Source: Bacteroidota bacterium (GTDB lineage Bacteria; Bacteroidota; Bacteroidia; Chitinophagales; Saprospiraceae). From it: DNA of 45,071 bases. The translations under genes and the position numbers were made by a program. Below the pieces are notes generated by a model. It ran no database searches and was not told where the DNA came from. It saw only the letters and a program-made list of their open reading frames with translations. Position 1 is the first letter of the stretch. Every line of letters begins with the position of its first letter. Below, piece after piece: positions 11,100 through 45,071 of the stretch. Location of the stretch: assembly GCA_024642705.1 (NCBI GenBank), contig JAHEAQ010000032.1:1-45071 (forward strand), read 5' to 3'.

Positions 11100-11148
11100 A
11101 ATGGTATTTAAAAAACATTAATTTTGAAAAAAGGGATAAATTAAAATT

Positions 11149-12346: not shown

Positions 12347-12354
12347 ATTTGCTG

Positions 12355-12360: not shown

Positions 12361-12371
12361 TGTGATAAAAG

Positions 12372-12387
12372 CCGTTAACGTTAACGG
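12372..12387. promoter_or_regulatory. LacI-type operator O2 (perfect 16-bp palindrome)
   Basis: ccgttaacgttaacgg shares the 14-bp core cgttaacgttaacg with the upstream site. Centre-to-centre distance to O1 is 43 bp, close to four helical turns, so both lie on the same face of the DNA and could be bridged by a tetramer. Confidence 0.8.
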
Positions 12388-12536
12388 AGATTAATTTTAC
12401 CCACTATTGAAAATTTTAAAATAATAATTCTGAATCCTACAAATTTAATGTTCAGATGCAATAAAAAGTAAATTTTGTAAACCATTATTATAAGATTTAA
12501 AAATGGTTTAATTACATTTAAAAAACTAAACTTGAA

Positions 12537-13958: not shown

Positions 13959-13987
13959 AAATTTCGATTACATTAAAAAAAATAAAC

Positions 13988-15385: not shown

Positions 15386-15400
15386 CCATTAAAAAATAGA

Positions 15401-16732: not shown

Positions 16733-16793
16733 TTATTTTTTGACCATTAATAACCTTAAGTAATAAGTATTAGAGGTTGATAATTAACATGGA

Positions 16794-16850
16794 TTGAGAT
16801 ACTCCATTTTGTTGTAAAGTAACAAGCAATATGGAGTATCTCAAATTTTA
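16794..16850 (+). terminator. Long hairpin, probable terminator after Gfo/Idh cassette
   Basis: A 14-bp perfect stem, ttgagatactccat (16794-16807) and atggagtatctcaa (16831-16844), encloses a nested 5-bp stem ttgtt/aacaa (16809-16813 and 16821-16825). Only a short T-run follows (attttaaaaaa), so it could act in either direction or be an RNA-stabilising 3' structure. It lies 61 bp after the stop codon. Confidence 0.6.
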
Positions 16851-17020
16851 AAAAAAGAACAAACCTTTAAAACAATAATAATTAAAGATTATCTTTTTCA
16901 AGTTCTTTTGAGAAATCCTTGCCGCATAAAAATTTATTATAAAACCTCCGTTAATAAAACTGAATAAAAATTCTAAAGTTTGATTTTGAAACCAAACTTA
17001 TACATAATAAAGCAAAGTAA
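16851..17020. other. AT-rich leader upstream of uxuA
   Basis: This non-coding stretch probably holds the promoter of the uronate catabolism operon. An inverted repeat aagtttg (16976-16982) and caaactt (16993-16999) lies about 22 bp before the start codon. A single CGTTA half-site (16949-16953) is present, but there is no full LacI-type palindrome. No ORF was seen. Confidence 0.4.
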
Positions 17021-18196: not shown

Positions 18197-18199
18197 AGT

Positions 18200-19597
18200 A
18201 TGAAATTATTTTTAGGTGAGCATTTTCTATTGAATAACAATACTGCAGAATTATTGTATCACAATTATGCAAAAGGATTACCCATCATTGACTACCACAA
18301 TCATTTACCGCCGCAAGAAATTGCTTCAAACAAAAAATTTGAAACTATTTCTGAAGTCTGGTTGAAAGGTGATCATTATAAGTGGAGGGCAATGCGAACA
18401 AATGGTGTAAATGAAAAATATATAACAGGTTCAGCTTCTGATAAAGAAAAGTTCCTAAAGTGGGCAGAAACTGTACCTTACACAATGAGAAATCCTTTAT
18501 ATCATTGGACGCATATGGAACTTCAAAGATATTTTGGAATCAACAAACTCCTTTCTTCCGCTTCTGGCGAAGAGATATATAATAAGACCAATGATTTGTT
18601 GGCACTACCAGAATATTCGACTCAAGGTTTATTGGAAAAAATGAATGTTGAAGTGGTTTGCACGACAGATGATCCAACAGATACTTTGGAACACCATATT
18701 GAATTCAAAAGCAAAGGAAATAAGTTGAAAATGCTTCCTGCTTTCAGGCCAGATAAGTTAATATTGATTGAGCAAAATAATTATTTATCTACATTAGAAA
18801 AGTTAGAAGAAATTATTGGTTCTTCAATTACCACATTTGATGAATTATTAGATGCACTTCAAAATAGAGTCGATTTTTTTCATCTCCAAGGTTGTAAATT
18901 AGCTGATCATGGATTGAATCATATGTTTGCATCAGATTTTTCAGAATCTTCCTTGAATAATATTTTACACACTCGCAGAAATAATGGCAAATTAACCATA
19001 GACGAAATCAATAGTTTTCAATCCGCAGTCATCTATCATCTAGCAGAAATGTATTATGAAAAAGGTTGGACAATGCAATTTCATCTTGGGGCGCTTCGAA
19101 ACAATAACAACAGATTAATGAGCATACTTGGTGCCGATGTAGGATGTGATAGTATTGGAGATTGGGAGCAAGCAGCAAACTTGTCGAAATTTTTTAATAA
19201 CTTAGATGAGAAACATAAATTAGCAAAAACCATAATTTACAATCTTAATCCACGTGACAATGAGGTTTTTGCTACTATGATAGGCAACTACAATGATGGA
19301 TCTATTGCTGGCAAAATACAATGGGGATCTGCATGGTGGTTTTTGGATCAAAAGGATGGCATGGAAAAACAAATAAATACGCTTTCAAATATGGGGCTGC
19401 TAAGTCAGTTTTTAGGAATGCTAACAGATAGTCGTAGTTTCCTTTCTTTTCCAAGACATGAATATTTTAGAAGAATTCTCTGTAATTTAATCGGTCAAGA
19501 TGTTGAAAATGGAGAACTACCTAATGATACTGCTTGGTTAGGAAAATTAGTACAAGATATCTGTTACAATAATGCAAAAAACTATTTCAATTTTTAA
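18200..19597 (+). CDS. uxaC: Glucuronate isomerase
   Basis: The 465-residue protein is a UxaC family member (E. coli 470 residues) of the amidohydrolase superfamily. Visible marks are IIDYHNHLPP near the N-terminus (metal histidines), CTTDDPTD, MQFHLGALRNNN and the C-terminal LTDSRSFLSFPRHEYFRR. It converts D-glucuronate to D-fructuronate (and galacturonate to tagaturonate) in the cytoplasm. The 3-bp spacings on both sides indicate tight co-transcription with uxuA and the TRAP transporter. Confidence 0.95.
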   Translation: MKLFLGEHFLLNNNTAELLYHNYAKGLPIIDYHNHLPPQEIASNKKFETISEVWLKGDHYKWRAMRTNGVNEKYITGSASDKEKFLKWAETVPYTMRNPLYHWTHMELQRYFGINKLLSSASGEEIYNKTNDLLALPEYSTQGLLEKMNVEVVCTTDDPTDTLEHHIEFKSKGNKLKMLPAFRPDKLILIEQNNYLSTLEKLEEIIGSSITTFDELLDALQNRVDFFHLQGCKLADHGLNHMFASDFSESSLNNILHTRRNNGKLTIDEINSFQSAVIYHLAEMYYEKGWTMQFHLGALRNNNNRLMSILGADVGCDSIGDWEQAANLSKFFNNLDEKHKLAKTIIYNLNPRDNEVFATMIGNYNDGSIAGKIQWGSAWWFLDQKDGMEKQINTLSNMGLLSQFLGMLTDSRSFLSFPRHEYFRRILCNLIGQDVENGELPNDTAWLGKLVQDICYNNAKNYFNF

Positions 19598-19600
19598 TGT

Positions 19601-20599
19601 ATGAATAAACTTTTGGCTTCCTTTCGGATATTTAAATTTGGGATAGTTCTACTATGTGGGATATTATGTACTTCGTGCGTAAAAATTTCAGAAACGAAAA
19701 CGGCATTTCTTGCTCATTCATTACCAATAAGTCATCCTGTTCATAAAGGTTTAGAAGTACTTGCTGCAGAAGTAGAAAAACAATCGGGAGGCAAGATGAA
19801 AATTAAAATATTCCCAGACGGCCAATTAGGTTCTGAAAGAGAAGTGGTTGAATTACTACAAATAGGTAGTATTGCAATGACCAAAGTTAACGCAGCAGTA
19901 ATGGCTAATTTCAGTCCTAAATACGAAGTGTTAGGAGTTCCTTATCTGTTTAGGGACCGAGATCACCTTTTTAAAGTTTTAGAAGGTCCAATAGGAAAAG
20001 AAATTTTAGAATCAAGCAGTGCATATTTATTGAAAGGACTTTGTTTCTACGACGCTGGAAGTAGGAGCTTTTATACAAAAGACAAACCAATATTAGAGCC
20101 AAATGATCTTAAAGGGATGAAAATTAGGGTTATGAACCATCAAATGTCAGTAGATATGGTCAATTCTATGGGTGGATCTGCGACACCGATGGCTTATGGA
20201 GAGTTGTATACAGCATTACAGCAAGGTGTTGTGGAAGGTGCAGAAAACAATCCACCATCATTTGTATCCTCTAAACATTATGAAGTATGCAAATACTACG
20301 TATTAGATGAACATAGTTCGGTTCCAGATCTGTTAGCAATGGGTACAAAATATTGGGAAAGTTTGACCGAAGAAGAAAAAGGGTGGTTGGCAAGTGCTGT
20401 TGAAATTTCTGTAAAAGCACAAAAAATATTTTGGGAAGAAAATGTGGAAGAATGCATGGAAATCTTAAAAGAAGCAAATGTCGAAGTGATAATACCAGAC
20501 AAAACTCTTTTTGCAGCTAGTTCTCAGAAAGTAGTGGACAATTTTGCAAAAGATCCAGAAATGAAAAAATTAGTGGACAGAATTAAAGAAACTCGATAA
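19601..20599 (+). CDS. TRAP transporter solute-binding protein (DctP family)
   Basis: The 332-residue periplasmic receptor has a hydrophobic N-terminus with cysteines near residue 26 (LCTSC), so it is probably a lipoprotein, although the lipobox is not canonical. DctP-family marks are GGKMKIKIFPDGQLGSERE and DLKGMKIRVMN, whose conserved arginine binds a substrate carboxylate, followed by GVVEGAENNPPSF. It overlaps dctQ by one base. The operon context of glucuronate and unsaturated-uronate enzymes makes a uronate or unsaturated uronate the likely ligand; the sequence alone does not decide which. Confidence 0.9.
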   Translation: MNKLLASFRIFKFGIVLLCGILCTSCVKISETKTAFLAHSLPISHPVHKGLEVLAAEVEKQSGGKMKIKIFPDGQLGSEREVVELLQIGSIAMTKVNAAVMANFSPKYEVLGVPYLFRDRDHLFKVLEGPIGKEILESSSAYLLKGLCFYDAGSRSFYTKDKPILEPNDLKGMKIRVMNHQMSVDMVNSMGGSATPMAYGELYTALQQGVVEGAENNPPSFVSSKHYEVCKYYVLDEHSSVPDLLAMGTKYWESLTEEEKGWLASAVEISVKAQKIFWEENVEECMEILKEANVEVIIPDKTLFAASSQKVVDNFAKDPEMKKLVDRIKETR

Positions 20600-21066
20600 T
20601 GACGAAAATTTATATTAGAATAAATAAAATTATTGAGCTGATGTTGGTCTTCATTTTCAGCTTGATGGTTGTTGACGTAGTGTGGCAAGTTTTTAGTCGA
20701 TATGTAGTTGGAAGATCCAATTCATTTACTGAAGAGTTCGCACGATTCGCTATGATGTGGTTGGTAATCCTGGGAGCAGCTTATCTAAATGGAAAAAGAG
20801 AACATCTTTCCATGGATTTTTTGCTCAGAAATTTAAATGACATTCAATTGCGAAAAAGATTAAATGCAATCGATTTTATCATTTCAATTTTCGCATTGGT
20901 TGTTATGGTAGTAGGCGGAGGAAATTTGGTATATACCACTTTGTATTTGGGGCAAGTTTCCTCAGCTATGCATATACCCTTAGGGTATATTTATGCAATA
21001 GTTCCAATAAGCGGAGTATTGATAATTTTTTATTCAGTGTATAATATTCAAAACACAAAACCCTAA
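20599..21066 (+). CDS. TRAP transporter small permease (DctQ family)
   Basis: The 155-residue protein has four predicted membrane helices and the DctQ signature FTEEFARFAMMWLVILGAA, with the conserved charged EE and R at the membrane face. Its ATG overlaps the stop codon of the binding-protein gene (TAATG). It pairs with DctM to form the sodium-driven membrane unit. Confidence 0.9.
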   Translation: MTKIYIRINKIIELMLVFIFSLMVVDVVWQVFSRYVVGRSNSFTEEFARFAMMWLVILGAAYLNGKREHLSMDFLLRNLNDIQLRKRLNAIDFIISIFALVVMVVGGGNLVYTTLYLGQVSSAMHIPLGYIYAIVPISGVLIIFYSVYNIQNTKP

Positions 21067-21071
21067 GGAAT

Positions 21072-22376
21072 ATGTCGATAGAATTAATCAGCATACTAGT
21101 TTTATTTATTAGCTTTTTTGCAATGCTTGGATATGGTATTCCTGTGGCTTATAGCATTGGCATTTCTACCACATTAACCTTACTTTTAAACATTGCCTTT
21201 ATTCCCGGTATAACTACAGTTGCCCAAAGGATGACAACAGGCATTGATAACTTTGCATTATTGGCTATTCCATTTTTCGTTCTAGCTGGCGAATTAATGA
21301 ATAAAGGAGGCATTGCAAATCGGCTAATTAATTTTGCAAAATCCCTTGTTGGCAGTCTACCAGGTGGTTTAGGTTATGTGAATATTTTAGCAGCAATGTT
21401 ATTTGGAGCAATTTCTGGATCAGCAGTAGCGGCTGCCTCAGCTATTGGAGGTGTAATGACCGAAAGAATGGAGGACGAAGGATATCCAGTTCCTGTGAGC
21501 GCTTCGATTAACATCACTTCATCCACAACAGGATTATTAATTCCTCCAAGCAATGTGCTAATAGTTTATGCATTAGCAAGTGGCGGAGCTGCTTCAGTTG
21601 CAGCTTTGTTTATGGCAGGTTATTTACCAGGAATATTAGTTGGATTAGCATTAATGGTGGTTACAGCAATCATTGTTCGTCAAAAAAAGATTAAAAGTGC
21701 TCCTTCTGTTTCTTTGAAAAGACTTATTAGTGATTTTGGAAAAGCATTTTTTAGTTTGTTAATGCTTGTTATCATTGTAGGAGGAATTGTTCAGGGCATT
21801 TTCACAGCTACTGAAGCAGCAGGAGTGTCAATCGTGTATGCTTTAATTTTAGGGTTCGCTTATAAAACCATAAAACTGAAAGATCTTCCCGCAATATTGT
21901 TAGAAAGTTCCAAGACAACTGCGATTGTAATGTTTTTGGTATGTACTTCAATGGCAATGTCATGGTTGTTTTCTTTCGAAAGCATTCCACAATTGTTGAC
22001 TGGATTTCTTGTTGAAACAGTAAGTAGTCCTTTTCTCATATTCCTTGTGATCAATTTAACATTATTGATAGTAGGAACTTTTATGGACATGACACCAGCG
22101 GTATTAATTTTCACCCCAATTTTCTTACCTGTTGTAACTCAATTGGGTATGGATCCTGTTCATTTTGGAATAATTATGGTCTTGAATTTATGTATTGGCC
22201 TTTGTACGCCTCCAGTCGGAACGCTTTTATTTGTAGGCGCCGGAGTAGCTAAAATTTCAGTAACTAAAATCATTAAACCATTGGTTCCATTTCTAATTGC
22301 CATGGTTGTCGTTTTGATGTTTGTAACTTACTTTCCACAATTGTCTTTATGGTTGCCTAAAGCATTTGGGTTATAA
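21072..22376 (+). CDS. TRAP transporter large permease (DctM family)
   Basis: The 434-residue protein has about 11-12 hydrophobic segments. DctM marks include ALLAIPFFVLAGELMNKGGIA, AMLFGAISGSAVAAASAIGG, SSTTGLLIPPSN and GTFMDMTPAVLIFTPIFLPV. It forms the transport channel with DctQ and is fed by the DctP receptor encoded just upstream. The gap to dctQ is 5 bp. A sugar kinase follows after 33 bp, consistent with import coupled to cytosolic catabolism. Confidence 0.93.
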   Translation: MSIELISILVLFISFFAMLGYGIPVAYSIGISTTLTLLLNIAFIPGITTVAQRMTTGIDNFALLAIPFFVLAGELMNKGGIANRLINFAKSLVGSLPGGLGYVNILAAMLFGAISGSAVAAASAIGGVMTERMEDEGYPVPVSASINITSSTTGLLIPPSNVLIVYALASGGAASVAALFMAGYLPGILVGLALMVVTAIIVRQKKIKSAPSVSLKRLISDFGKAFFSLLMLVIIVGGIVQGIFTATEAAGVSIVYALILGFAYKTIKLKDLPAILLESSKTTAIVMFLVCTSMAMSWLFSFESIPQLLTGFLVETVSSPFLIFLVINLTLLIVGTFMDMTPAVLIFTPIFLPVVTQLGMDPVHFGIIMVLNLCIGLCTPPVGTLLFVGAGVAKISVTKIIKPLVPFLIAMVVVLMFVTYFPQLSLWLPKAFGL

Positions 22377-26119: not shown

Positions 26120-27694
26120 ATGAAATTGAATATAAAAGACACCTTCAATACCCAATTACTTTCAGATCCGAAGACAAGTAATGAAAGAAGACAGGTTTCT
26201 AACGCTATGTTTTCATTTGTCACACCTCGAAAACCTAGTGCTCCAAAGCTTATTCATGTTTCACAGGAAGTTTCTCAATTTCTGGGGATAAGTATGGAAG
26301 AAGCTCAATCTGAAGAATTTTTGCAAATATTTTCAGGAAGTAAAATTATTGAAGGGACTCACCCATATGCCATGGTTTATGGAGGTCATCAATTTGGCAA
26401 TTGGGCAGGACAATTGGGTGATGGGCGTGCAATTAATTTATGCGAGGTAGTACACAATGAATATAGATGGGCATTGCAGTTAAAAGGATCAGGGGAAACA
26501 CCTTTTTCAAGGGGAGCGGATGGACTTGCAGTATTACGATCTTCGATTAGAGAACATTTATGCAGTGAAGCAATGTTTCATTTAGGTGTTCCCACGACCA
26601 GATCTTTATCCTTAATTCTGACTGGAGATGATGTATTGAGAGATGTAATGTACAATGGAAATTCAGCTTATGAAAAGGGTGCTGTTGTTTGCAGAGTAGC
26701 GCCTAGTTTTATTAGGTTTGGAAATTTTCAAATTTTCACTTCAAGGCAGGATATAGATTCACTAAAATTATTAACAGATTATACCATTCGCAACTTTTTT
26801 CCAGACATTGAATTAGGATCTAAAGAAGCATATTTAGAATTTTTTCAAGAAGTTTTAGATAGAACACTTGATATGATACTGCATTGGCAAAGGGTAGGAT
26901 TTGTACATGGTGTAATGAACACCGATAATATGTCTATACTTGGACTAACCATTGATTATGGGCCATATGGATGGCTTGAAGGCTATGATCATGGTTGGAC
27001 TCCCAACACGACTGATAAAGAGGGTCGTAGATATCGATATGAATATCAACCAAGAATAGCGTTATGGAATCTTTTGCAATTGGCAAATGCACTTTTCCCA
27101 TTAATTGGGGAGTCAGAACCATTGGAAAAAATACTGAATAGCTATAGTTCTAGATATGCTGTAGAAAATCTCCAAATGATGAAAGCAAAAATTGGTCTTT
27201 TCAAAGAAGATGAAAATGACCAACGCTTAATCGATCATTTGGAAAAAATGTTGCAGTTAACAGAGACTGATATGACTATTTTTTTTAGGAATCTAGCAAA
27301 TTTCAAAAGAGAAACTGAAATTGATTTAGGAGGTAAATTTCTTTCCATTATTGAAGACTCTTTTTACGATTCAAATCGAATGAAACCAGTCATAGCTTCT
27401 TCTTGGAAAGATTGGTTTGAATTGTATAAAATTCGCATTGAAAAAGAAAAATATTCAGATTCTGAAAGAAAAGAATTGATGGACGAAACCAATCCAAAAT
27501 ATGTTCTGAGAAACTATATGGCACAGTTGGCCATTGATGCTGCGAATCAAGGTGATTATTCACTAATCGATGAATTATACCATTTACTAAAAAATCCATA
27601 TGGTGAGCAACCAGAGCAGCAAAAATGGTTTGCTAAAAGACCTGAATGGGCTAGAAACAAAGTTGGATGTTCAATGCTTTCCTGCAGTTCTTAG
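26120..27694 (+). CDS. selO: Protein adenylyltransferase SelO (YdiU family)
   Basis: The 524-residue pseudokinase-fold protein carries the SelO blocks YGGHQFGNWAGQLGDGRA, QLKGSGETPFSRGADGLAVLRSSIREHL, VHGVMNTDNMSILGLTIDYGPYGW and the C-terminal GCSMLSCSS. Cysteine takes the position near the C-terminus where animal homologues have selenocysteine. SelO transfers AMP from ATP to protein Ser/Thr/Tyr residues and is linked to redox stress. The gene follows the dioxygenase by 108 bp. It is probably unrelated to uronate use and ends at a convergent junction with the minus-strand SRPBCC gene. Confidence 0.95.
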   Translation: MKLNIKDTFNTQLLSDPKTSNERRQVSNAMFSFVTPRKPSAPKLIHVSQEVSQFLGISMEEAQSEEFLQIFSGSKIIEGTHPYAMVYGGHQFGNWAGQLGDGRAINLCEVVHNEYRWALQLKGSGETPFSRGADGLAVLRSSIREHLCSEAMFHLGVPTTRSLSLILTGDDVLRDVMYNGNSAYEKGAVVCRVAPSFIRFGNFQIFTSRQDIDSLKLLTDYTIRNFFPDIELGSKEAYLEFFQEVLDRTLDMILHWQRVGFVHGVMNTDNMSILGLTIDYGPYGWLEGYDHGWTPNTTDKEGRRYRYEYQPRIALWNLLQLANALFPLIGESEPLEKILNSYSSRYAVENLQMMKAKIGLFKEDENDQRLIDHLEKMLQLTETDMTIFFRNLANFKRETEIDLGGKFLSIIEDSFYDSNRMKPVIASSWKDWFELYKIRIEKEKYSDSERKELMDETNPKYVLRNYMAQLAIDAANQGDYSLIDELYHLLKNPYGEQPEQQKWFAKRPEWARNKVGCSMLSCSS

Positions 27695-31733: not shown

Positions 31734-34700
31734 CTAATTTATTAAATGGTTAATGTCAATAACAATCTGGTTATAAGAATGGAGATTTTTGAGATAATTA
31801 ATACGGATATTCACAGCGCTTTCAAGGGTAAATATGTATTGAAAAAAGTCTATCTCTCCCCCATTCAATGATTTTAATGCAACAGCTATCAAATCGTCCT
31901 GCAGCATACTTCCAGAGTTAATATATTTGTTTATTGCTTCTTCATAAATTGCTAATGAAGCTTGCAATTCTAATAATTTATTTTCCAGTTCATTGATTTG
32001 ATTTTCAAAATCGTTTGATTTTATAGAAACTTCAATCTTTGCAGCTTCATTCAAGGATTTCAGAGATTTCTTCCAAAGTGGAATAGAAACTCCAGCTTGA
32101 ATTCCTGGATAATAATTAAAATTTTCAATTCCAGAAAAGCTGTTAAAAAATGACAGATGCACATCCGGAAGAATTTGTTTTTCAGAAAGATCTAAAGCAA
32201 AATTTGCATTATTAACCAATAACCTTTTGAATTCAACGGCGGGATGTCGTCTTATATTAGGCGGTTCCACTGTAATTTTATCATATTGAATTGGTTGAAT
32301 TGAAAAAACTTCTCCAGATTGCATCCAATATTTCAGTTTGGCCATTTCTGATAATTCATTTTTTTTTGCTTGTTCTAATTGCAAAGTAATTTCTTGCCTT
32401 TTTGCATTTGCAGTTAACTTTTCAAGCAAGCTACCTTCTCCCAATTCATACTTCTTATTAGATGCATTTTCAAAACTTTGATATAAGCTATCCAAAAAAT
32501 TGTATTCATTAATAATTTTCTTCCAATACACTATTTCGAAATAGGTCTTCCGGATTTCCTTGGAAAGCATCCATTTTTCAATTTCTACATATCCTGCAGT
32601 AGATTCTGAATTTGAAGCTAATAATTTATCATTTGCTTTGACAAAGGAAGGCAATTTAAAACTTTGTTTAATTCCGAAAACTTGAAGTGGAATGCCATTA
32701 CCTGCAATGTTGGCACGATCATATTCATAATAAATATCCGCTTTTCCAAAGGTTTCTGTACTTCCAATTAAGGCTTTACTTTTATCAATTTCCAACATAC
32801 TTGACTTCAATCTAAGATTATTGTTCAATCCTATTTCTACAGCTTCTTCGACAGATATTATTTTTTGACCATTCAGACCAATAGAAAAAACAGGAATTAA
32901 AACAAAGAGTATCATCACGGCTGGATTCAATGCGACTTTAATTCGTTTTTCAAAAACTGAATATAAAACTGGCAAAACTATTAATGTCAATAATGTAGCT
33001 GTAACTAATCCTCCAATTACCACTGTGGCGAGCGGTCTTTGAACTTCTGCGCCCGCAGAAGTCGAAATTGCCATGGGAAGGAAACCAAGAGCAGCTGCCG
33101 TTGCTGTTAAAAGGACTGGGCGAAGTCTTTCTGTGGTGCCTCTTATTACTCTTTCGTGAACATCTTCCACACCTTTCGACTTCAATTCTTTAAAATGTTC
33201 AATTAATACAATCCCATTCAAAACAGCTATTCCAAATAAGGCTATAAATCCTACTCCTGCTGATATGCTAAAAGGCAAGCCTCGAAAATATAACAAGAAA
33301 ACACCTCCAACTGAAGCCAATGGAATTGCACTGAAAATAATCAAGGCATCTCTAACCGAATCGAAAGCAAAATAAAGCAAAATGAATATCAATATTAATG
33401 AAATAGGAACAGCAATCATTAATCTTTTTGAAGCACTTTGCAAGTTCTCAAATTGACCTCCGTATTTTACTGAATATCCTACTGGAAACTTAATCTTTTC
33501 TCCAATAATTGTTTGAATATCATCGACTACAGATTGCAAGTCTCTTCCTCTAACATTTACGCCAACTACCACTCTTCTTCTGGTATCATCTCGCGATATT
33601 TTTGCAGGTCCAGAAGTATATTCGATTTTTGCAAATGCACTCAATGGCATTTGCATACCATTGTGAATTTCAACCATGGCATTTTTTAAGTCTTCTAAAT
33701 CTTTTCGATCTTCCTTTCGATATTTAATGACTAGATCAAATTGTTTTTCACCCTCGAAAATGGATCCAGCTACTTTGCCTGCAAAACCCATAGCAATTAC
33801 ATCATTAAGATCTGCAATATTTACTCCATATTTTGAAATCATATTTCTGTCAAACTTAACTGTCATTTGGGGCAAGCCTTCTGTTTTCTCAACTACTATA
33901 TCCGCTGCTCCTTCCACATTTTCAATTGCCTTTTTAATTTCATTTGCTTTCTGAGCAAGTATTTCAAGATCTTCACCAAACACTTTAATTGCCAAATCAG
34001 CCCTTACGCCTGTTATTAATTCATTGAACCGCATTTCAATAGGCTGGGTGAATTCAATTTCTATCCCTTGTATCTCTTCAAAAACTGCATTTCTAAATAT
34101 TTCAGCCAATTCATCTTTTGTTTCTGCTGATGTCCATTCTTTTATTGGTTTTAATGTAATAATTACATCACTTTCCTCCATCGACATAGGGTCCGTAGGA
34201 ACTTCAGCTGCTCCAATTCTAGTAATAACTTGATCCACTTCAGGAAATTTTCTTAATATGGCTTCAATCCTAGTTGTCATTTCAATGGTCGAGGACAAAG
34301 ACATTCCTGTTTTGAAAACTGGCTGTATGACAAAATCGCCTTCGTCCAAAGTAGGAACAAATTCTCCGCCCATTCTATTAAAAAAATAGAGGGCAACAAT
34401 AAGAAGGATTGCAGCAATTGAAATGACTGTAGCCTTCAATTTCAAAGCCAATGTAATTGTCGGTTTATATAACGATTGTAAAAAATGAATTAATCGATTT
34501 GAAAAATGTTTATTATTTGGCTTAGTAGGCTTTATAAACAATGATGCCATCACTGGCAAATATGTGAAACATAAAATCATCGCACCTGTTAATGCAAATG
34601 AAAATGTTAATGCCATTGGTCGAAACATTTTACCTTCTACTCCAGCTAACGATAAAATCGGGATAAAAACAATTATGATAATTATTTGCCCAAAAATTGC

Positions 34701-36056
34701 TGAATGCATCATTTTCTTGGTGCTTTCCAAACTGATTTTATCTTTTAATTTAAACTTTTCTTCTTTGGATAACGTAGGAAATATTTCGGATTTTCTTGCC
34801 AGGCTATAGGTTATATATTCAATAATTATTACTGCTCCATCTATAATTATTCCGAAATCAATTGCACCTAAACTCATTAAATTAGCATCAATTCCGAAAA
34901 TGTACATCAATAGAATTGCAAATAACAAACTTAAAGGAATAACTGAAGCAACAACTAAGCCCGACCGAAAATTTCCCAATAATAGTATCACTATAAAAAT
35001 TACTATAAGAGACCCAAGGATTAAATTTTCAGAAATGGTAAAAGTAGTTCTACCTATCAATGCACTTCTCTCTAAAAAACCATTTATAAATATTCCTTCA
35101 GGCAAAGTTTTTTGGATTTCTTCTACTCTTTCTTTTACTGCGTTAATAACTTCCTTCGAAGAAGCATCTTTTAACATCATTACCTGTCCTAACACTTTTT
35201 CACCTTCGCCATTTCCGGTAATAGCCCCAAATCTGGTGGCATGACCAAAACCAACTTCTGCCAAATCTTTTATAAAAATTGGAGTGCCGTTCCTGTTTTC
35301 AACCACTATTTTTTTAATGTCATCAATTGAATTCAATAGACCATCTGCGCGAATAAAATAACTTTCATTTGCCTTTTCTATGTATCCTCCACCAGCAATG
35401 CTGTTGTTTGATTCCAATGCCTTGTAAACAGTTCCAAGTGAGATGTTCATGGATTTTAATCGATCGGGATCAATCGAAACTTCATAAGTTTTCAAAAATC
35501 CTCCCCAAGTATTGACTTCAACCACTCCTGGAATACCCGATAATTGCCTCTTTACAATCCAGTCTTGAATGGTTCTTAAGTCAGTTACGGAATATCTGTC
35601 TTTATATCCAGGCTTTATATCCAAAATGTATTGGTAAATCTCCCCAAGGCCTGTGCTAACTGGACCCATAAAAGGCAATCCAAAACCAGAAGGAATTTTT
35701 TCTTCGGCACTTTTGATTTTCTCAGCAATTAATTGTCGTGGAAGATAAGTACCCAGATTGTCTTCGAACACAATAGTCACCACAGACAATCCGAATTTCG
35801 AAATGGATCTTATTTCTTTTACGCCAGGTAGGTTAGCCATTTCTAGCTCAACTGGATAAGTTAGAAATTTTTCAACGTCTTCAGTTGCCAAATTTCTGGA
35901 CGTAGTGATTACCTGTACCTGATTATTGGTAATATCTGGGACAGCACCTATTGATATTTGAGTAAGGGCAAAAATTCCAAAACCAACCCAAGTAATTGTA
36001 AAAAGAATTATAATTAACTTATGATTTAAGCTATAATTGATGATGCGATTAAACAT
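31734..36056 (-). CDS. CzcA-type heavy-metal RND pump fused to TolC-like outer-membrane factor
   Basis: The 1440-residue protein comprises a full HME-RND pump (about 1-1040) followed by a TolC/CzcC-like outer-membrane factor (about 1060-1440, ISVEEAVEIGLNNNLRLKSS). The fourth membrane helix carries DFGIIIDGAVIIIE (about 401-414), the acidic pattern of the divalent-cation (Zn/Co/Cd) class rather than the CusA (Cu/Ag) class. A hydrophobic segment near residue 1043 (NPAVMILFVLIPVFSIG) looks like an internalised signal peptide ahead of the channel part. Such fusions are known in Bacteroidota. Whether the chain is processed into two proteins cannot be told from the sequence. Confidence 0.93.
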   Translation of the reverse strand: MFNRIINYSLNHKLIIILFTITWVGFGIFALTQISIGAVPDITNNQVQVITTSRNLATEDVEKFLTYPVELEMANLPGVKEIRSISKFGLSVVTIVFEDNLGTYLPRQLIAEKIKSAEEKIPSGFGLPFMGPVSTGLGEIYQYILDIKPGYKDRYSVTDLRTIQDWIVKRQLSGIPGVVEVNTWGGFLKTYEVSIDPDRLKSMNISLGTVYKALESNNSIAGGGYIEKANESYFIRADGLLNSIDDIKKIVVENRNGTPIFIKDLAEVGFGHATRFGAITGNGEGEKVLGQVMMLKDASSKEVINAVKERVEEIQKTLPEGIFINGFLERSALIGRTTFTISENLILGSLIVIFIVILLLGNFRSGLVVASVIPLSLLFAILLMYIFGIDANLMSLGAIDFGIIIDGAVIIIEYITYSLARKSEIFPTLSKEEKFKLKDKISLESTKKMMHSAIFGQIIIIIVFIPILSLAGVEGKMFRPMALTFSFALTGAMILCFTYLPVMASLFIKPTKPNNKHFSNRLIHFLQSLYKPTITLALKLKATVISIAAILLIVALYFFNRMGGEFVPTLDEGDFVIQPVFKTGMSLSSTIEMTTRIEAILRKFPEVDQVITRIGAAEVPTDPMSMEESDVIITLKPIKEWTSAETKDELAEIFRNAVFEEIQGIEIEFTQPIEMRFNELITGVRADLAIKVFGEDLEILAQKANEIKKAIENVEGAADIVVEKTEGLPQMTVKFDRNMISKYGVNIADLNDVIAMGFAGKVAGSIFEGEKQFDLVIKYRKEDRKDLEDLKNAMVEIHNGMQMPLSAFAKIEYTSGPAKISRDDTRRRVVVGVNVRGRDLQSVVDDIQTIIGEKIKFPVGYSVKYGGQFENLQSASKRLMIAVPISLILIFILLYFAFDSVRDALIIFSAIPLASVGGVFLLYFRGLPFSISAGVGFIALFGIAVLNGIVLIEHFKELKSKGVEDVHERVIRGTTERLRPVLLTATAAALGFLPMAISTSAGAEVQRPLATVVIGGLVTATLLTLIVLPVLYSVFEKRIKVALNPAVMILFVLIPVFSIGLNGQKIISVEEAVEIGLNNNLRLKSSMLEIDKSKALIGSTETFGKADIYYEYDRANIAGNGIPLQVFGIKQSFKLPSFVKANDKLLASNSESTAGYVEIEKWMLSKEIRKTYFEIVYWKKIINEYNFLDSLYQSFENASNKKYELGEGSLLEKLTANAKRQEITLQLEQAKKNELSEMAKLKYWMQSGEVFSIQPIQYDKITVEPPNIRRHPAVEFKRLLVNNANFALDLSEKQILPDVHLSFFNSFSGIENFNYYPGIQAGVSIPLWKKSLKSLNEAAKIEVSIKSNDFENQINELENKLLELQASLAIYEEAINKYINSGSMLQDDLIAVALKSLNGGEIDFFQYIFTLESAVNIRINYLKNLHSYNQIVIDINHLIN

Positions 36057-38666: not shown

Positions 38667-39539
38667 ATGGATGAAGCTGGAAAATTTAAAATTCTGCATA
38701 TAATCTTTGTAACCACAATGGTAACAATTGTCATAGCGGTCACCATTTATCTTTTTTGGGTTGGACATTCCTATTACAGCACGACACTGGAAGAACGATT
38801 TTACCACGAACATCACGATTGGTTTAAGCCAAGTGGTTTGTTTGGACATGGTCTAGGAATCGTAGGCACATTAATGATTTTATTTGGAGTATTGATATAT
38901 ATTGCCCGCAAAAGATATAATTTTTTATCAAAATTTATAAGGTTAAAATATCTACTTGAGTTCCATATTTTTCTTTGCACTTTAGGACCAATTTTAGTAC
39001 TTTTTCATACCGCATTCAAATTTGGAGGAATTGTTTCGATTGCTTTCTGGAGTATGATTGCGGTGGTGTTAAGTGGTGTCATAGGAAGATTCATTTATAT
39101 TCAAATTCCAAGAACAATCGAAGGTAGAGAATTAAGTTTAAGTGAAGTTACCAACATGAGGATTAATCTAAGCAATGAATTGGCAAGTAGATCAAATATC
39201 TCCCAAACGACAATAACATTAGATAATCTCGAAGGTAGTTTAGGGATTCTTGAGAGCAAACCATCATATATAAAAGCATTGATTAATAATAGAAAAAAAA
39301 TTAGGTTATTAAAGAGAGAATTGAAACAAAAAAAGATATCAAGAGCAGAAAGAACAACAATTATCTCAATAGCTAAAAGCGAATTGTCACTAAATCAAAA
39401 AATACAGCGATTGGAATCTATGCAGACTCTATTTAAATATTGGCACGTTGCGCATTTGCCTTTCGCTTTAATCATGTTGATTATAGTTGTCATTCACGTT
39501 GCGATAACACTAATTTTTGGCTATAAATGGATATTTTAA
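38667..39539 (+). CDS. Di-heme membrane cytochrome b-like protein
   Basis: The 290-residue protein has five membrane segments (about 8-33, 57-80, 96-118, 121-146, 260-286). The last two-thirds includes a basic helical stretch (about 200-250). Two pairs of histidines have the classic H-x13-H spacing of cytochrome b-type four-helix bundles, H100/H114 and H263/H277. H61 and H260 are further membrane histidines. This predicts two stacked b hemes spanning the inner membrane. It is the first gene of an operon and overlaps the next gene by 13 bp, so it is probably the membrane partner of the FAD/ferredoxin oxidoreductase. No named family was recognised with certainty. Confidence 0.75.
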   Translation: MDEAGKFKILHIIFVTTMVTIVIAVTIYLFWVGHSYYSTTLEERFYHEHHDWFKPSGLFGHGLGIVGTLMILFGVLIYIARKRYNFLSKFIRLKYLLEFHIFLCTLGPILVLFHTAFKFGGIVSIAFWSMIAVVLSGVIGRFIYIQIPRTIEGRELSLSEVTNMRINLSNELASRSNISQTTITLDNLEGSLGILESKPSYIKALINNRKKIRLLKRELKQKKISRAERTTIISIAKSELSLNQKIQRLESMQTLFKYWHVAHLPFALIMLIIVVIHVAITLIFGYKWIF

Positions 39540-40876
39540 TGGAGGTGTTAATAGAACAAATATTAATTTATTTATCTGTTTTCCTATTATGTGGAATAGT
39601 GATTTTTTATTATTTAAAAAAACAAAAACAAACGACACTTAAAACGGAACAAAAAATTGCTCTTGCAAAAGAAGAAGGCTTGTTCGAGCCTGTTTCATTG
39701 CATCCATATATTAATTTGTCAACTTGCATTGGAAGCGCTGCTTGTATAACAGCTTGTCCAGAAAAAGATATTTTAGGAATTATAGATGGAAAAGCTACAG
39801 TCATAAAAGCATCCAATTGTATTGGACATGGAGCATGCTTTCATGCATGCCCCGTGGAAGCGATCAGTTTAAGAATTGGTACTGAAAAAAGAGGCGTAGA
39901 ATTGCCGCATGTTAATGAATCATTCGAAACCAATGTCAAAGGTATGTATATAGCTGGGGAATTAGGAGGAATGGGACTAATTAAAAATAGTGTTGAACAA
40001 GGTGAGCAAGCTATCGAAAGCATGTTTAAGAAAAAAAACCCTATAGAAAAAGGAGTTTTCGATGTGGTAATTATTGGTGCGGGTCCTGCTGGCATCTCAG
40101 CAACATTGACAGCAAAAAAATATGGAATGTCGAGCTTAACTTTGGAACAAGATTCATTAGGTGGTACAGTTTATACTTTCCCAAGAGCAAAAATTGTGAT
40201 GACGGCTCCTATGAATTTACCTTTGCATGGTAAAGTAAAACTTTTCAATACCTCTAAAGATGAACTTTTGACTTTATGGCAAGAAGTAATTAAAAACAAT
40301 GAAATTGACATAAAGGAACATACCAAAGTCGAAAATATCCTTCCTTTAAATAATGGCAAATTTAAAATTGAAACGGCTCAAGGAGAAACTTTTTTTGCAT
40401 ATAACGTTTTACTAGCTATTGGAAGAAGAGGAACACCCAGAAAACTTAATGTCCCCGGCGAGGATTTACAAAAAGTTGCTTATAGATTAATTGAATCCGA
40501 GAGGATTCAGGACAAAAATGTAATGGTTGTCGGAGGAGGCGATTCAGCAGTAGAATCAGCACTATTATTAAAAGATAGAAACAAAGTAGTATTGTCATAT
40601 CGAAGTGATAAATTCTCAAGAATAAAACCAAAAAACCGCGAGAAAATATTACAAGCAATTCAGGATAATTCGGTTAATGTGAGTTTTAATTCTAATCTAA
40701 TAAAAATTAATGAGCATGATGTAATGCTCAATTTTAGTGATTCGGGTGAAACCCACAGAATTCAAAATGATTTGGTTTATATCTATGCTGGCGGCGAATT
40801 ACCAACAAATTTTTTGCAAAAAGCAGGAGTGCAGATAACAAAAAGATTTGGTCATATTATAAAAAAACATAGTTGA
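39527..40876 (+). CDS. Membrane-anchored ferredoxin/FAD/NAD(P)H oxidoreductase
   Basis: The 449-residue protein has one membrane helix (about 11-29), then a ferredoxin-like domain with C67-x5-C73-x3-C77-P and C98-x5-C104-x3-C108-P. In both motifs the second cysteine of the normal CxxCxxCxxxCP is replaced (S70, H101). A thioredoxin-reductase-like flavoprotein follows, with FAD motif GAGPAG (184-189) and NAD(P) motif GGGDS (336-340). The redox-active CxxC of thioredoxin reductase is absent, so electrons probably pass between NAD(P)H, FAD and iron-sulfur clusters. An alternative start is ATG 39539, overlapping the previous stop (TAATG). It is co-transcribed with the cytochrome b and c genes, so it is the likely entry point of electrons. 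Confidence 0.85.
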   Translation: MDILMEVLIEQILIYLSVFLLCGIVIFYYLKKQKQTTLKTEQKIALAKEEGLFEPVSLHPYINLSTCIGSAACITACPEKDILGIIDGKATVIKASNCIGHGACFHACPVEAISLRIGTEKRGVELPHVNESFETNVKGMYIAGELGGMGLIKNSVEQGEQAIESMFKKKNPIEKGVFDVVIIGAGPAGISATLTAKKYGMSSLTLEQDSLGGTVYTFPRAKIVMTAPMNLPLHGKVKLFNTSKDELLTLWQEVIKNNEIDIKEHTKVENILPLNNGKFKIETAQGETFFAYNVLLAIGRRGTPRKLNVPGEDLQKVAYRLIESERIQDKNVMVVGGGDSAVESALLLKDRNKVVLSYRSDKFSRIKPKNREKILQAIQDNSVNVSFNSNLIKINEHDVMLNFSDSGETHRIQNDLVYIYAGGELPTNFLQKAGVQITKRFGHIIKKHS

Positions 40877-40880
40877 AAGT

Positions 40881-42707
40881 ATGGCAAAACAAATTATACA
40901 ATTACTTTTTTTCAATCTAATGCTAACGATTTCAGCGTTTGCCCAGATTTCGCCTGGAGACCTTTCTTCTGCACACAGTCAGTTAGATGGAATAAGTAAT
41001 TGTACGCAATGCCATGACTTAGGAAAACAAGTTTCCAATACTAAATGTATGGATTGCCATAAGGAAATAAAATCACTTATAAGTCAGAAAAGAGGTTATC
41101 ATTCCGATTATGCTGTTCAGTCCAAAAATTGTTTCGATTGCCACAGTGAACATCATGGTCGAAAATTTGACATGGTTAGATTTGATGAAAAGGAATTTGA
41201 CCATGATCTTACTGGATACACATTAGAGTCAAAACATTTAGTGATTGATTGTAAAGATTGCCACAAACCAGACTACATTTCCGATCCAAAAATTCAAAAA
41301 AAAGAAACTACTTATATTGGCTTAGAGCAAAAGTGTTTGTCCTGCCATGAAGATTTCCACCAAAATACACTTTCCACAGATTGTATCGCTTGCCACAATT
41401 TTGAATCATTTCGTCCAGCACCAGGATTTAATCATGATGATGCAGAATTTATTCTTAAAGGTGAACACCTTGATGTGGATTGCATCGAATGCCACCCAAC
41501 GACTTTTCAAAATGGGAATGAATTCCAACAGTTTACGGAACTCGCTTTTAATGATTGCGTGTCTTGTCATGAAGACCCACATTTAGGAAATATTCCTGGA
41601 AATTGTACCCAATGCCATGCAGAAAATGGTTTTGAATCATTTATGGGAAAGCAAAAATTTGATCATAATAAAACGGATTTTACATTAATTGGAAGTCATA
41701 AAAATGTAGATTGTTTTGAATGTCATAAAAAAACCAATGTAACATCTAAAATTTTCCTAGACAAGATAGGTATCAACGAAAATCAATGCATTAAGTGCCA
41801 TGAAGATGTTCATAAAGGCAAATTTGGAGAAGCTTGTGCTAGTTGTCATAAAGAACAAAGCTTTTCTAAGCTAAAATCAATGGAATTCTTTGATCACAAA
41901 TTAACTGATTATCCTCTAGAAGGCAATCATCAAAATGTGGATTGTATCAATTGTCATAAAGGAAGTCATCTTGATCCAATCGATTTTTCTGCATGTAAAA
42001 ATTGTCATGAAGATTATCATAAGGGAGAATTTTCTGACAATGGAATTTCAAGAGATTGTATAGAATGTCATACTGTAAGTGACGGCTTCCAAATGAGTTT
42101 GTTCTCCATCGAAAATCACCAAGAAACAGAATTCCCATTAGAAGGATCTCACTTGGCAACTCCATGTTTTGCATGTCACATCAGTGAAGAAACTTGGTCT
42201 TTTAGAAATATTGGAAACGATTGTGTGGATTGCCATGAGGATATACATAAAGGTTTTATTAGCGAAAAGTATTATCCAAATCAAAAATGTGAACAATGTC
42301 ACAATTCACAAACCTGGTCTGATGTAAATTTTAATCACGAATTGACAGAATGGCGACTTGATGGAGAACACAAAATAACTGAATGTCGTGCCTGTCACTT
42401 TAAATTCGGAGATGATAACAGTACATTTACTCAAACATTTTTTTCACTAAGCAACGAGTGCATTGAATGCCATAAAGACAATCATGATAATCAGTTTAAA
42501 ATAAATGGGATTACAGATTGTAAAAGATGTCATGATAGTGATAATTGGGATGCAAATAATTTTGATCACAATTTAACAGCTTTTATTTTAGATGGGAAAC
42601 ATGCTAACCTTGATTGTAAAGCCTGCCATAAACCTATAAACACCAACGGAAAATTAATTATACAGTATAAAATTAAAAAATTTGAGTGCGTAGACTGTCA
42701 TTCATAA
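40881..42707 (+). CDS. Secreted 23-heme multiheme cytochrome c
   Basis: The 608-residue protein has a signal peptide (about 1-22, ending AFAQ). I count 23 CxxCH heme-attachment motifs, about one per 26 residues. A repeated unit F-[DN]-H-x5-[FYW]-x-L-x-G-x-H followed closely by C-x2-CH appears about seven times. The extra histidines are candidate distal axial ligands, giving bis-His low-spin hemes. There is no membrane anchor or lipobox, so the product should be periplasmic or exported. It starts 4 bp after the oxidoreductase gene and overlaps the next cytochrome gene by 22 bp. A chain of closely packed hemes implies long-range electron conduction; the acceptor is unknown. Confidence 0.95.
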   Translation: MAKQIIQLLFFNLMLTISAFAQISPGDLSSAHSQLDGISNCTQCHDLGKQVSNTKCMDCHKEIKSLISQKRGYHSDYAVQSKNCFDCHSEHHGRKFDMVRFDEKEFDHDLTGYTLESKHLVIDCKDCHKPDYISDPKIQKKETTYIGLEQKCLSCHEDFHQNTLSTDCIACHNFESFRPAPGFNHDDAEFILKGEHLDVDCIECHPTTFQNGNEFQQFTELAFNDCVSCHEDPHLGNIPGNCTQCHAENGFESFMGKQKFDHNKTDFTLIGSHKNVDCFECHKKTNVTSKIFLDKIGINENQCIKCHEDVHKGKFGEACASCHKEQSFSKLKSMEFFDHKLTDYPLEGNHQNVDCINCHKGSHLDPIDFSACKNCHEDYHKGEFSDNGISRDCIECHTVSDGFQMSLFSIENHQETEFPLEGSHLATPCFACHISEETWSFRNIGNDCVDCHEDIHKGFISEKYYPNQKCEQCHNSQTWSDVNFNHELTEWRLDGEHKITECRACHFKFGDDNSTFTQTFFSLSNECIECHKDNHDNQFKINGITDCKRCHDSDNWDANNFDHNLTAFILDGKHANLDCKACHKPINTNGKLIIQYKIKKFECVDCHS

Positions 42708-45071
42708 TAATTTTAAACCTTCTTTTTTTAAAGGTTTTTAGTCAATCTCCACATGGCACGGAATTGAAGCTAGACTGTACTGCATGTCACAATACTTCTG
42801 GTTGGGAGATTCCTATGTCTGATTGGAAATTTATTCCTTTAGACGAAAAGCAAATCTCAAAAACAACTGGTGTAGAATTACAAATTGGGAATCAAAAATT
42901 CAATCATTTTGATACTGAATTCCCACTGATTGGAACACACGAATTTGTTAATTGCAAAGATTGTCATAACAGTTTGATATTTAAAGAAGCCGAAACTACT
43001 TGTGTTTCTTGCCATACTGATATTCACAGTGCTTCAGTAGGAAATGATTGCATAAGATGTCATTCTTCAATAACATGGTTAGTTGACAATATTCCTGAAC
43101 TACATGAAGAAAATGGATTCCCTTTGGTTGGAGCCCACAATACCCAAAACTGTGTGGACTGTCACGTTTCTGAAACTGAATTAAGATTTGATAGAATAGG
43201 AAACGATTGCATCAATTGTCACTTAACGGATTATAACAATACTGAAATTCCAAACCATCTAACAAACGATTTTTCATTAAATTGCATAGAATGCCACGAT
43301 GCAAGTTCAACAACATGGAATACAACAGCTATAAATCATGATTTTTTCCCTTTAACAGAAGGTCATGACATTCAAGATTGTAAATTGTGCCACTCTACAG
43401 GAAATTATTCAGATGCTACACCCGATTGCATAAGTTGCCATCTAGTTGATTTTCAAAAAACAACTTCACCTAATCATAGAACTGCTAATTTTACTACCGA
43501 ATGTGTGGATTGCCATACCACAAATCTAGGCTGGCAGCCTGCCGAATATAAAGCACATGATGAATTATTTTTCCCAATTTATTCGGGCACTCACCAAAGC
43601 CAATGGATAGATTGTATTGACTGTCATACCAATCAGGATAATTTTCAGTTATTTTCTTGTATTAATTGCCACAACAATCCTGAAACTGATAATAATCACA
43701 CAGGAATAAGCGGATATGTTTATTCTGACAAAGCATGTTTTGCTTGCCACCCTGGAGGAAATGCTGATGATCCTTTTGATCACAATGCTACAAATTTCCC
43801 ATTGACTGGGGAACACATTGGTTTAGATTGTATTCAATGTCATGCAGATGGTTTTGCGGGAACACCTACTAATTGTGTGGATTGTCATAATGCTGATTTT
43901 CAAGCAACATTGAATCCCAATCACCCTCAATTGAATATTCCCACAGATTGTGCATCTTGTCATACTACAGAACCTGATTGGATTCCTGCCAGTTTTGATA
44001 TGCATAGTGCCTTTTATCCATTGAATGGTGCGCATGCAGCTGTTGCAAATGATTGTGTAAGTTGCCATAATGGAGATTACAATAATACCCCAAATACCTG
44101 CGTGGGTTGCCATCAAACTGATTTCGATAATACTTCTAATCCGAATCATGCAGATGCTCAGTTCCCTACAGATTGTGCTTCTTGCCATTCAGAAAATGCT
44201 TGGTCACCTACTACTTTTGACCACAATACAATCTATCCATTGAATGGTGCGCATGCGAATATTGCAGCCGATTGTGCAAGTTGTCACAATGGAGATTACA
44301 ATAATACCCCAAATACTTGCGTGGGTTGCCATCAAACTGATTTCGATAATACTTCTAATCCGAATCATGCAGATGCGCAGTTCCCTACAGATTGTGTTTC
44401 TTGCCATTCAGAAAATGCTTGGTCACCTACTACTTTTGACCACAATGCTATATATCCATTGAATGGTGCGCATGCGACTATTGCAACCGATTGTGCAAGT
44501 TGTCATAATGGCGATTACAATAATACCCCAAACACTTGTGTGGGTTGTCACCAAACTGATTTCGACAATACCACAAATCCGAATCATGTAGATGTTCAGT
44601 TCCCTATAGATTGCGCTTCATGCCATAATGAAGGAGCTTGGTCTCCTACTACTTTTGACCACAATGCTTTCTATCCATTGAATGGTGCGCATGCGACTAT
44701 TGCAACCGATTGTGCAAGTTGTCATAATGGCGATTACAATAATACACCAAACACTTGTGTGGGTTGTCACCAAACTGATTTCGACAATACCACTAATCCG
44801 AATCATGCAGATGTTCAGTTCCCTACAGATTGCGCTTCATGCCATAATGAAGGAGCTTGGTCTCCAACTACTTTTGACCACAATGCTTTCTATCCATTGA
44901 ATGGCGCACATGCAGATATTGCAACCGATTGTATAAGTTGTCACAATGGGGATTATAACAACACCCCAAATACTTGTGTGGGTTGTCATCAAACTGATTA
45001 CAATAACACTTCAAATCCTAATCATGCAGATGCTCAATTCCCTACAGATTGCGCTTCTTGCCATAATGAAG
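42686..45071 (+). CDS. Giant multiheme cytochrome c (3' end beyond window, at least 31 hemes)
   Basis: This frame is open from a TGA at 42683 to the window edge, at least 795 codons. No ATG precedes the signal peptide, so I place the start at GTG 42686, inside the end of the previous gene (22-bp overlap). It gives MRRLSFIIILNLLFLKVFSQ. The first in-frame ATG (42815) would remove both the signal and the first heme site. I count 31 CxxCH motifs so far. From 43946 the protein consists of about 73-residue repeats, each with three hemes (CASCH, CASCH, CVGCH) and the FDHN...YPLNGAH segment, which is the same unit as in the 23-heme neighbour. Full length, heme number and any T9SS tail lie outside the window. 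Confidence 0.9.
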   Translation, partial: MRRLSFIIILNLLFLKVFSQSPHGTELKLDCTACHNTSGWEIPMSDWKFIPLDEKQISKTTGVELQIGNQKFNHFDTEFPLIGTHEFVNCKDCHNSLIFKEAETTCVSCHTDIHSASVGNDCIRCHSSITWLVDNIPELHEENGFPLVGAHNTQNCVDCHVSETELRFDRIGNDCINCHLTDYNNTEIPNHLTNDFSLNCIECHDASSTTWNTTAINHDFFPLTEGHDIQDCKLCHSTGNYSDATPDCISCHLVDFQKTTSPNHRTANFTTECVDCHTTNLGWQPAEYKAHDELFFPIYSGTHQSQWIDCIDCHTNQDNFQLFSCINCHNNPETDNNHTGISGYVYSDKACFACHPGGNADDPFDHNATNFPLTGEHIGLDCIQCHADGFAGTPTNCVDCHNADFQATLNPNHPQLNIPTDCASCHTTEPDWIPASFDMHSAFYPLNGAHAAVANDCVSCHNGDYNNTPNTCVGCHQTDFDNTSNPNHADAQFPTDCASCHSENAWSPTTFDHNTIYPLNGAHANIAADCASCHNGDYNNTPNTCVGCHQTDFDNTSNPNHADAQFPTDCVSCHSENAWSPTTFDHNAIYPLNGAHATIATDCASCHNGDYNNTPNTCVGCHQTDFDNTTNPNHVDVQFPIDCASCHNEGAWSPTTFDHNAFYPLNGAHATIATDCASCHNGDYNNTPNTCVGCHQTDFDNTTNPNHADVQFPTDCASCHNEGAWSPTTFDHNAFYPLNGAHADIATDCISCHNGDYNNTPNTCVGCHQTDYNNTSNPNHADAQFPTDCASCHNE
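43946..45071 (+). repeat. 219-bp tandem repeats coding tri-heme modules
   Basis: Units begin with gattg(t/c)g(c/t)(a/t)tc at 43946 (225 bp), 44171, 44390, 44609, 44828 (each exactly 219 bp) and 45047 (cut by the window end). Each unit encodes three CxxCH motifs. The last two-thirds of the 44390 and 44609 units differ at only a few bases. The first part of 44390 matches 44171 more closely, so the copies look mosaic. Confidence 0.95.

Follow-up and report, generated by a model that had tools for sequence, protein, structure and literature searches.

Where would electrons go that enter a gene cluster encoding a cytochrome b, a flavoprotein and two multiheme cytochromes c? The question is raised by four genes at one end of the window, the 45,071-base stretch of Bacteroidota DNA analysed here, which is an entire contig (C19) of its genome. 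An initial annotation described them as an overlapping or near-abutting set, and all four are present at their coordinates with the features assigned to them. Adjacent open reading frames (ORFs) overlap or have 4 bases between them, and the CxxCH counts of the third and fourth genes are 23 and, up to the cut at the contig end, 31, in agreement with the 23 and at least 31 hemes claimed. The module to which these genes belong probably represents a transmembrane electron outlet to the cell exterior; we infer export to the outside, the electron direction and the function. On the best reading of the sequences, it would resemble a porin-cytochrome conduit in plan and be of a new type. The features, with ORFs taken from the ORF listing, are:

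38667-39539, plus strand: cytochrome b, 290 amino acids, five predicted membrane helices, putative remote relative of DUF4405/cytochrome b561
39527-40876, plus strand: membrane-anchored ferredoxin-FAD-NAD(P)H protein, 449 amino acids, assigned by Pfam domains and motif alignment
40881-42707, plus strand: 23-heme cytochrome c by CxxCH count, 608 amino acids, signal-like N-terminus
42686-45071 (window end), plus strand: N-terminal part of a giant cytochrome c, 795 amino acids, open and truncated at the contig end
44015-45070, plus strand: tandem array of a 219-base unit (73 amino acids, three hemes), 4.8 copies with 91% matches

Probable continuation of the cluster and its distribution in Bacteroidota

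C19 terminates within the tandem heme repeats of the giant cytochrome. Its final part aligns at 84% with the minus strand of another contig of the same genome (C74, 35769-36591), which opens inside the same heme repeat and in register with C19; the last 41 bases of C19 are present again in C74. The minus strand of C74 encodes 354 amino acids with 15 hemes and 15 further histidines, corresponding to the end of the giant. This is followed by a 541-amino-acid barrel ORF, a 260-amino-acid lipoprotein-like ORF (weak Pfam matches only, GW at 0.012) and a 1041-amino-acid ResB/Cytochrom_C_asm (CcsBA) protein. C19 and C74 neither overlap end to end over 20-199 bases nor share a 55-base end word, and the gap is unclosed. 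C74 is taken, by inference, as the continuation of the window's giant cytochrome because the parts are in register (31 + 15 = 46 hemes, which fits the 10 + 3n series described below) and the same order is found in relatives.

The cluster had been considered unlike the Mtr/Omc systems for want of a porin. The window indeed lacks one, because it is a whole contig that ends inside heme repeats, but this does not hold as a difference, as a barrel gene with about 22 predicted strands follows the giant past position 45071, on C74, and in relatives. A viral-contig scan and PADLOC both returned nothing.

The core set is defined here as the cytochrome b, the FAD protein, at least two multiheme cytochromes and the barrel, and was sought with a six-frame profile scan. 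A search of relatives located the cytochrome b in 9 of 60 genomes, the window's own included, and in 0 of 2 within the genus. The core set is complete in five of the eight relatives' loci; the other three (L014, L015, L018) display the cytochrome b and the FAD gene on stretches that end early. A named set comprises the best 80 of 299 related loci. Its hosts are Bacteroidota by title, save one "Chlorobiota" and one "bacterium", and include the marine genera Maribacter, Arenibacter and Lutibacter. The cytochrome b is present in all 80 of these loci, the FAD gene in 78, at least two multiheme genes in 60, the barrel in 41 and the full core set in 41; many of the 39 incomplete loci lie on contigs that break off early.

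An evenly drawn phylum sample of 395 genomes, the window's own among them, gave matches to the cytochrome b in 53, own included. In the 52 others the match extends over most of the protein in 39 and over part of it in 13. The full core set is found in 31 of the 39 loci of the former type, and contig ends truncate five others (L137, L146, L152, L155, L158). Conserved synteny, which had been proposed as a check, is thus borne out: gene content is strongly conserved, and gene order in most lineages. Its recurrence in genomes throughout the phylum shows that the four-gene set is not a chance arrangement.

Other genes are more restricted. The lipoprotein is found in 30 of the 80 named loci and CcsBA in 24, with each in 1 of the 39 phylum-sample loci, by profiles built from near relatives; both were dropped as core parts and are regarded as lineage-bound. 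In deeper branches the FAD gene is located after the barrel, and many of these loci have a membrane-anchored TPR protein after the cytochrome b. One such protein, when scanned, matched TPR_12 at 2.2e-8 and a CcmH-type TPR at 1.7e-7, the latter under its cut-off.

Some partial relatives of the cytochrome b have other neighbours. In L134 (5237-11017) and L135 (2611-7359) they are found, by translation, near a 10-heme cytochrome, an FHA-like small protein and a longer FAD protein. A short one in L133 (about 5842-6120, plus strand) is followed closely by a 14-heme ORF, also on the plus strand (6317-7474).

A copy of the module is present on a plasmid of complete sequence, pEMTOL02 of Emticicia oligotrophica DSM 17448 (L176, NC_018749.1, 70365-93141), where seven module genes are consecutive: CcsA, the cytochrome b (annotated "hypothetical"), an NAD(P)-binding protein, two cytochrome c3 family proteins, a "hypothetical" barrel and a "GW dipeptide" protein. 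All five proteins other than the cytochromes c match module profiles, and the cytochromes carry 23 and 40 hemes. Of 36 plasmid records with matches, the Emticicia one is best at 50%, and the nine others listed are below 28%. In a Methylophaga plasmid match a 2Fe-2S protein and a cytochrome C adjoin, which is not the module set.

In a quick tree of 74 named-locus flavoproteins and the window's, the latter is in a 45-row part (SH-aLRT 98) that contains 24 Flavobacteriales rows and 9 of the 22 Saprospirales rows; it shares a small group (92, not starred) with, among others, a Saprospiraceae row. This placement and the patchy distribution make horizontal transfer of the module plausible, not proven. 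On pEMTOL02 the module adjoins an opposite-strand set (Rieske, YceI, c-type cytochrome, DUF5777 barrel and sigma factor) and is also near a sugar-degradation locus.

The electron-carrying proteins and the barrel

The second gene carries 4Fe-4S and pyridine-nucleotide/FAD domains (Pfam). By sequence search, its best solved relatives are YpdA/Bdr and thioredoxin reductases (PDB 7a76 at 1.8e-36), with which it shares, by sequence, the FAD/NAD(P)H two-domain fold. It differs from them in having no CxxC, in the two Fe-S clusters and membrane anchor in front and in a permuted FAD segment. A 19-sequence profile of the segment before GxGxxG aligns with the C-terminal FAD segment of glutathione reductase (residues 294-337, E 1.9e-5) and residues 300-341, of 343, of thioredoxin reductase 7jyp (E 0.013), and the main FAD part aligns to residues 35-296 of 7jyp. 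Judged from these alignments, therefore, the FAD part is circularly permuted, with the C-terminal FAD motif moved to the front; the usual linear order of GxGxxG, NAD domain and C-terminal FAD motif is not found. Going by kinship only, the donor would be NADPH rather than NADH.

Cys67, 73, 77, 98, 104 and 108 and His101 are invariant in 111 of 111 flavoprotein sequences, whereas position 70 varies (83 Ser, 15 Cys, 12 Thr, 1 Ala). The second Fe-S motif reads CxxHxxCxxxC. As His101 occupies the place of its second Cys, one cluster is likely of the 3Cys-1His type. Clusters of this type occur at the exit of [NiFe] hydrogenases. The FAD part has a CxxC in 0 of the 111 sequences and hence offers no obvious thiol route; a role as thiol-disulfide reductase was rejected on this ground.

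The cytochrome b displays the two H-x13-H pairs noted at the outset, H100/H114 in helix 3 and H263/H277 in helix 5; H100, H114, H260, H263 and H277 are invariant in all 46 aligned sequences. Loops 2 and 4, between the five hydrophobic stretches, are rich in Lys and Arg. They are cytosolic by the positive-inside pattern, which would place H100, H260 and H263 towards the cytosol and H114 and H277 towards the periplasm. The DUF4405 profile matches 31 of the 46 members at E≤0.1 (best 5e-6). A sequence search for solved structures found none at the limits set. An AF2 model has a pLDDT of 81.2 and a pTM of 0.64.

Pfam c7/c3 cytochrome domains are found in both the third and fourth genes, with Cytochrome_C7 in eight stretches of the window's part of the giant. 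Most relatives of the 23-heme protein have 20 or 23 hemes. In the giant, further histidines equal hemes one to one (31/31 in the C19 part, 15/15 in the C74 part), and all its hemes may be bis-His. The CxxCH motifs of giants follow a recurring spacing of about 15-25-33 residues; the examples listed differ little in head and tail, and the 3-heme units are located between these. The tandem 219-base array is, by its translated repeat, the putative growth unit of the giant's wire.

This pattern is reflected in a three-heme rule. Hemes number 10 + 3n, with a range of 10 to 88, in 51 of 55 closed giant-type ORFs of the named set and four relatives, and in 35 of 39 of the phylum sample. These are closed ORFs with at least 10 hemes, minus the 20- or 23-heme ORFs (67 of 122 and 36 of 75); ORFs cut by an end were left out (18 of 140 and 5 of 80). 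Against the rule stand ORFs with 42, 26, 12 and 35 hemes in the named set and with 15, 15, 14 and 38 in the phylum sample, and the make-up of the sets, which may share species, consist of mutually related sequences and include no unrelated cytochrome family as a control. The 42- and 35-heme exceptions display over-long spacing gaps where motifs seem lost, and the 26-heme one is a member of the first cytochrome's 20/23 series. Repeats may be collapsed in short-read assemblies, such that single heme numbers are possibly too low. Arenibacter echinorum and Arenibacter sp. F20364, both draft assemblies, have near-identical giants with 25 and 16 hemes, respectively. Two giant-type cytochromes in tandem are found in some loci (L027, L064, L074, L080); in L027 a 46-heme and then a 19-heme one lie ahead of one barrel.

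The AF2 model of the barrel of one relative (L099; pLDDT 82.6, pTM 0.62) displays about 22 strands and a small N-terminal beta domain. Foldseek returned 325 PDB matches at E≤0.001, and the best 50 are all outer-membrane barrels; these comprise ushers, AlgE, MOMP and others, and MtrB is absent from those 50. Since ushers rank first, the barrel might be an exporter of the giant and not its sheath. In minimal forms of the module, a 10-heme cytochrome is paired directly with the barrel. L026 carries, behind a single module, a convergent pair of barrel genes from one family (8947-10614, plus strand; 11620-13227, minus strand).

Proposed electron route and competing readings

The electron chain put forward in the initial annotation, in which NAD(P)H feeds FAD, Fe-S and b hemes in turn and then multiheme cytochromes c, is supported as a proposal; the gene content is strongly conserved. 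In the cytoplasm, the anchored flavoprotein would accept hydride from NADPH onto FAD. Single electrons would then pass by way of two Fe-S clusters, one probably 3Cys-1His, to a cytosol-side heme b (H100/H263) and on to a periplasm-side heme b (H114/H277). The 20/23-heme cytochrome might serve as a periplasmic relay. The giant, a fixed 10- or 13-heme head and tail extended by 3-heme c7-like units, would be the partner of the barrel and might carry electrons through or beyond the outer membrane to an acceptor such as oxidised humics, metal oxides or other cells. Heme attachment could be served by CcsBA, in the window's type, or by the TPR protein in other lineages. Redox balancing, and not energy conservation, is the most likely use, since the chain would draw on NAD(P)H itself and the cluster displays neither a proton-pumping subunit nor a quinone enzyme. 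It is tentatively proposed that the module is a further, quinone-independent design of extracellular electron pathway, widespread in Bacteroidota, in which NADPH feeds a permuted flavoprotein with a His-ligated Fe-S cluster, a two-heme cytochrome b and a covalent single-chain wire through a dedicated barrel, the reach being tuned in evolution by gain or loss of 3-heme units.

Several findings weigh against an outlet to the exterior. The window's cytochrome b itself has no Pfam match, DUF4405 included, and its model has no PDB fold match by Foldseek at E≤0.001. L145 is reduced to the cytochrome b and a TPR gene; in L169 the cytochrome b is broken and the barrel is in pieces. The barrel of L175 is doubtful at 20 bits by profile, and those of other deep branches score 30-67 bits, the fold model being that of L099 only. 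The match to Pfam MtrC/MtrF domain II/IV (50.3 bits in the window's giant, 72.9-151.2 in complete giants and 38.2 in the 23-heme protein, cut-off 30), a point in favour of the outlet and shared with MtrCAB, may represent real kinship or CxxCH content alone. A lipobox-like motif before the first heme is found in 0 of 93 closed giant-type ORFs with at least nine hemes, and a lipoprotein giant was rejected. A T9SS tail, one of the features to be looked for past position 45071, did not turn up: Por_Secre_tail is not among the Pfam matches of three complete giants at E≤0.01, and a T9SS-exported giant was rejected.

With no surface signal recognised, the giant could instead stay in the periplasm as a capacitor that stores NADPH electrons during acceptor shortage, the barrel being an anchor or a passage for small molecules. 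Capacitor roles are proposed for Geobacter GSU1996 (PMC10138318) and for giant secreted cytochromes (PMC11495043). The barrel is linked even to the 10-heme form, however, which would have little storage capacity, and a periplasmic store is considered unlikely. The carriers are all reversible in principle and a direct NAD(P)H end suits reductant supply, such that the chain might run backwards and take up electrons from Fe(II), humics or a partner cell to form NADPH. Most donors would require uphill transfer, and the cluster displays no energy-coupling subunit. The hosts, moreover, include marine Maribacter, Arenibacter and Lutibacter, which are heterotrophs; uptake is judged improbable.

The membrane domain of NADPH oxidases and ferric reductases has two H-x13-H helices and carries electrons from a cytosolic flavin to the outer side. 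The NADPH-FAD-two-heme-b logic of the module is like that of these eukaryotic enzymes, and an assimilatory or stress reductase for iron uptake or repair, with Fe(III), oxidised thiols or sulfoxides as its surface substrates, may be envisaged by analogy. The module differs in that no FNR-type flavin domain was found by Pfam; up to 88 hemes and an outer-membrane barrel would also exceed the need and cost iron, and very little weight is given to this role.

There is next to no chance that the cluster is a known respiratory complex truncated by the contig end, even though multiheme cytochromes occur in alternative complex III and in nitrite and sulfite reductases alike. The downstream genes on C74, in relatives and on the plasmid, which were to decide this point, are those for the barrel, the lipoprotein and CcsBA or are unrelated, and these complexes were rejected on that basis. 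No molybdopterin, NrfD-like or other catalytic subunit, and hence no terminal reductase, was recognised among the cluster genes read, the rest of the genome not having been searched. NrfD-like subunits and the CISM protein of alternative complex III are likewise not seen among these genes, no dedicated profile having been run on all neighbours. The outlet to the exterior remains the preferred interpretation.

Relation to known systems and other genes of the window

The module conforms to the general porin-cytochrome plan in that an outer-membrane barrel gene adjoins multiheme c cytochromes, as in MtrCAB of Shewanella and OmbB-OmaB-OmcB of Geobacter, the latter compared by plan and not by sequence. 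In its smallest version, a barrel with a 10-heme cytochrome, it also resembles these conduits. Unlike Mtr, its inner-membrane entry would be an NAD(P)H-FAD-FeS-cytochrome b chain and not a quinol oxidase such as CymA, and its giant grows by 3-heme units. No CymA/NapC quinol oxidase was recognised in the window's cluster or the C74 stretch, the rest of the genome not having been searched.

In a comparison with the MtrB/PioB family, three barrels (L004, L138, L099) match 0 NCBIfam families at E≤0.01, and the barrel has no solved relative at the limit set. A search of the window's own genome with the MtrB profile TIGR03509 gave no match, control profiles being equally silent. Against the MtrA/DmsE decaheme family the 23-heme protein reaches 46.5 bits against a cut-off of 192.2, and 10- and 13-heme relatives have no DmsE match at E≤0.01. 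No solved structure was found for a 13-heme relative at E≤0.001 or for the 23-heme query at the limit set.

The giant is similar to Geobacter GSU1996 (12 hemes, four domains) in being a single chain of tandem c7-like triheme domains, but it has 10 to 88 hemes and is accompanied by a barrel and a flavoprotein of its own. GSU1996 contains one His-Met heme per domain (PMC10138318); the one extra His per heme in the giant speaks against such a heme in each domain.

Giant Bacteroidota cytochromes are already in print as undescribed proteins. In the accessible portions of PMC11495043, Bacteroidota of activated sludge, mainly Saprospiraceae, are reported to encode undescribed cytochromes of >100 heme motifs, and these may well include the giant of this module. 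Very large heme counts are common ground; those portions give counts and possible roles and make no mention of a module, a 3-heme rule, a flavoprotein or a barrel as partner. An 86-heme cytochrome of Desulfuromonas acetexigens (PMC12133095) has a similarly large heme count, again with no module, 3-heme rule or partners named in the text available. Putative new porin-cytochrome genes in some Bacteroidetes, with a 51-heme component on an unbinned contig, are mentioned in the accessible part of PMC6344600 and may include this module. A different cluster, of six multiheme genes and a barrel, appears in that of PMC8258643, and the module is not described in the accessible parts of PMC3534657, PMC9769843 and PMC13322032. 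No description was found in the open PMC literature, subscription papers and preprints being outside the search, and the module as a whole appears undescribed.

If the proposal is correct, about one in ten sampled Bacteroidota genomes, cultured marine genera included, would own a direct NADPH-to-outside outlet, which could explain the giant cytochromes noticed in activated-sludge Saprospiraceae. The series of 10, 13, 16 ... 88 hemes would represent a natural length series of one wire, in which length versus function is directly testable.

Elsewhere in the window, a single 1440-amino-acid ORF on the minus strand (31734-36056) is an apparent fusion, judged by translation only, in which a TolC-like outer-membrane part comes after an RND metal-efflux pump. 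A sugar-acid locus at 2980-22376, of which selected ORFs were scanned, contains a GH2 protein, a member of the alginate lyase family, a MocA oxidoreductase, a glucuronate isomerase and a TRAP transporter. A SelO-type protein adenylyltransferase is encoded at 26120-27694.

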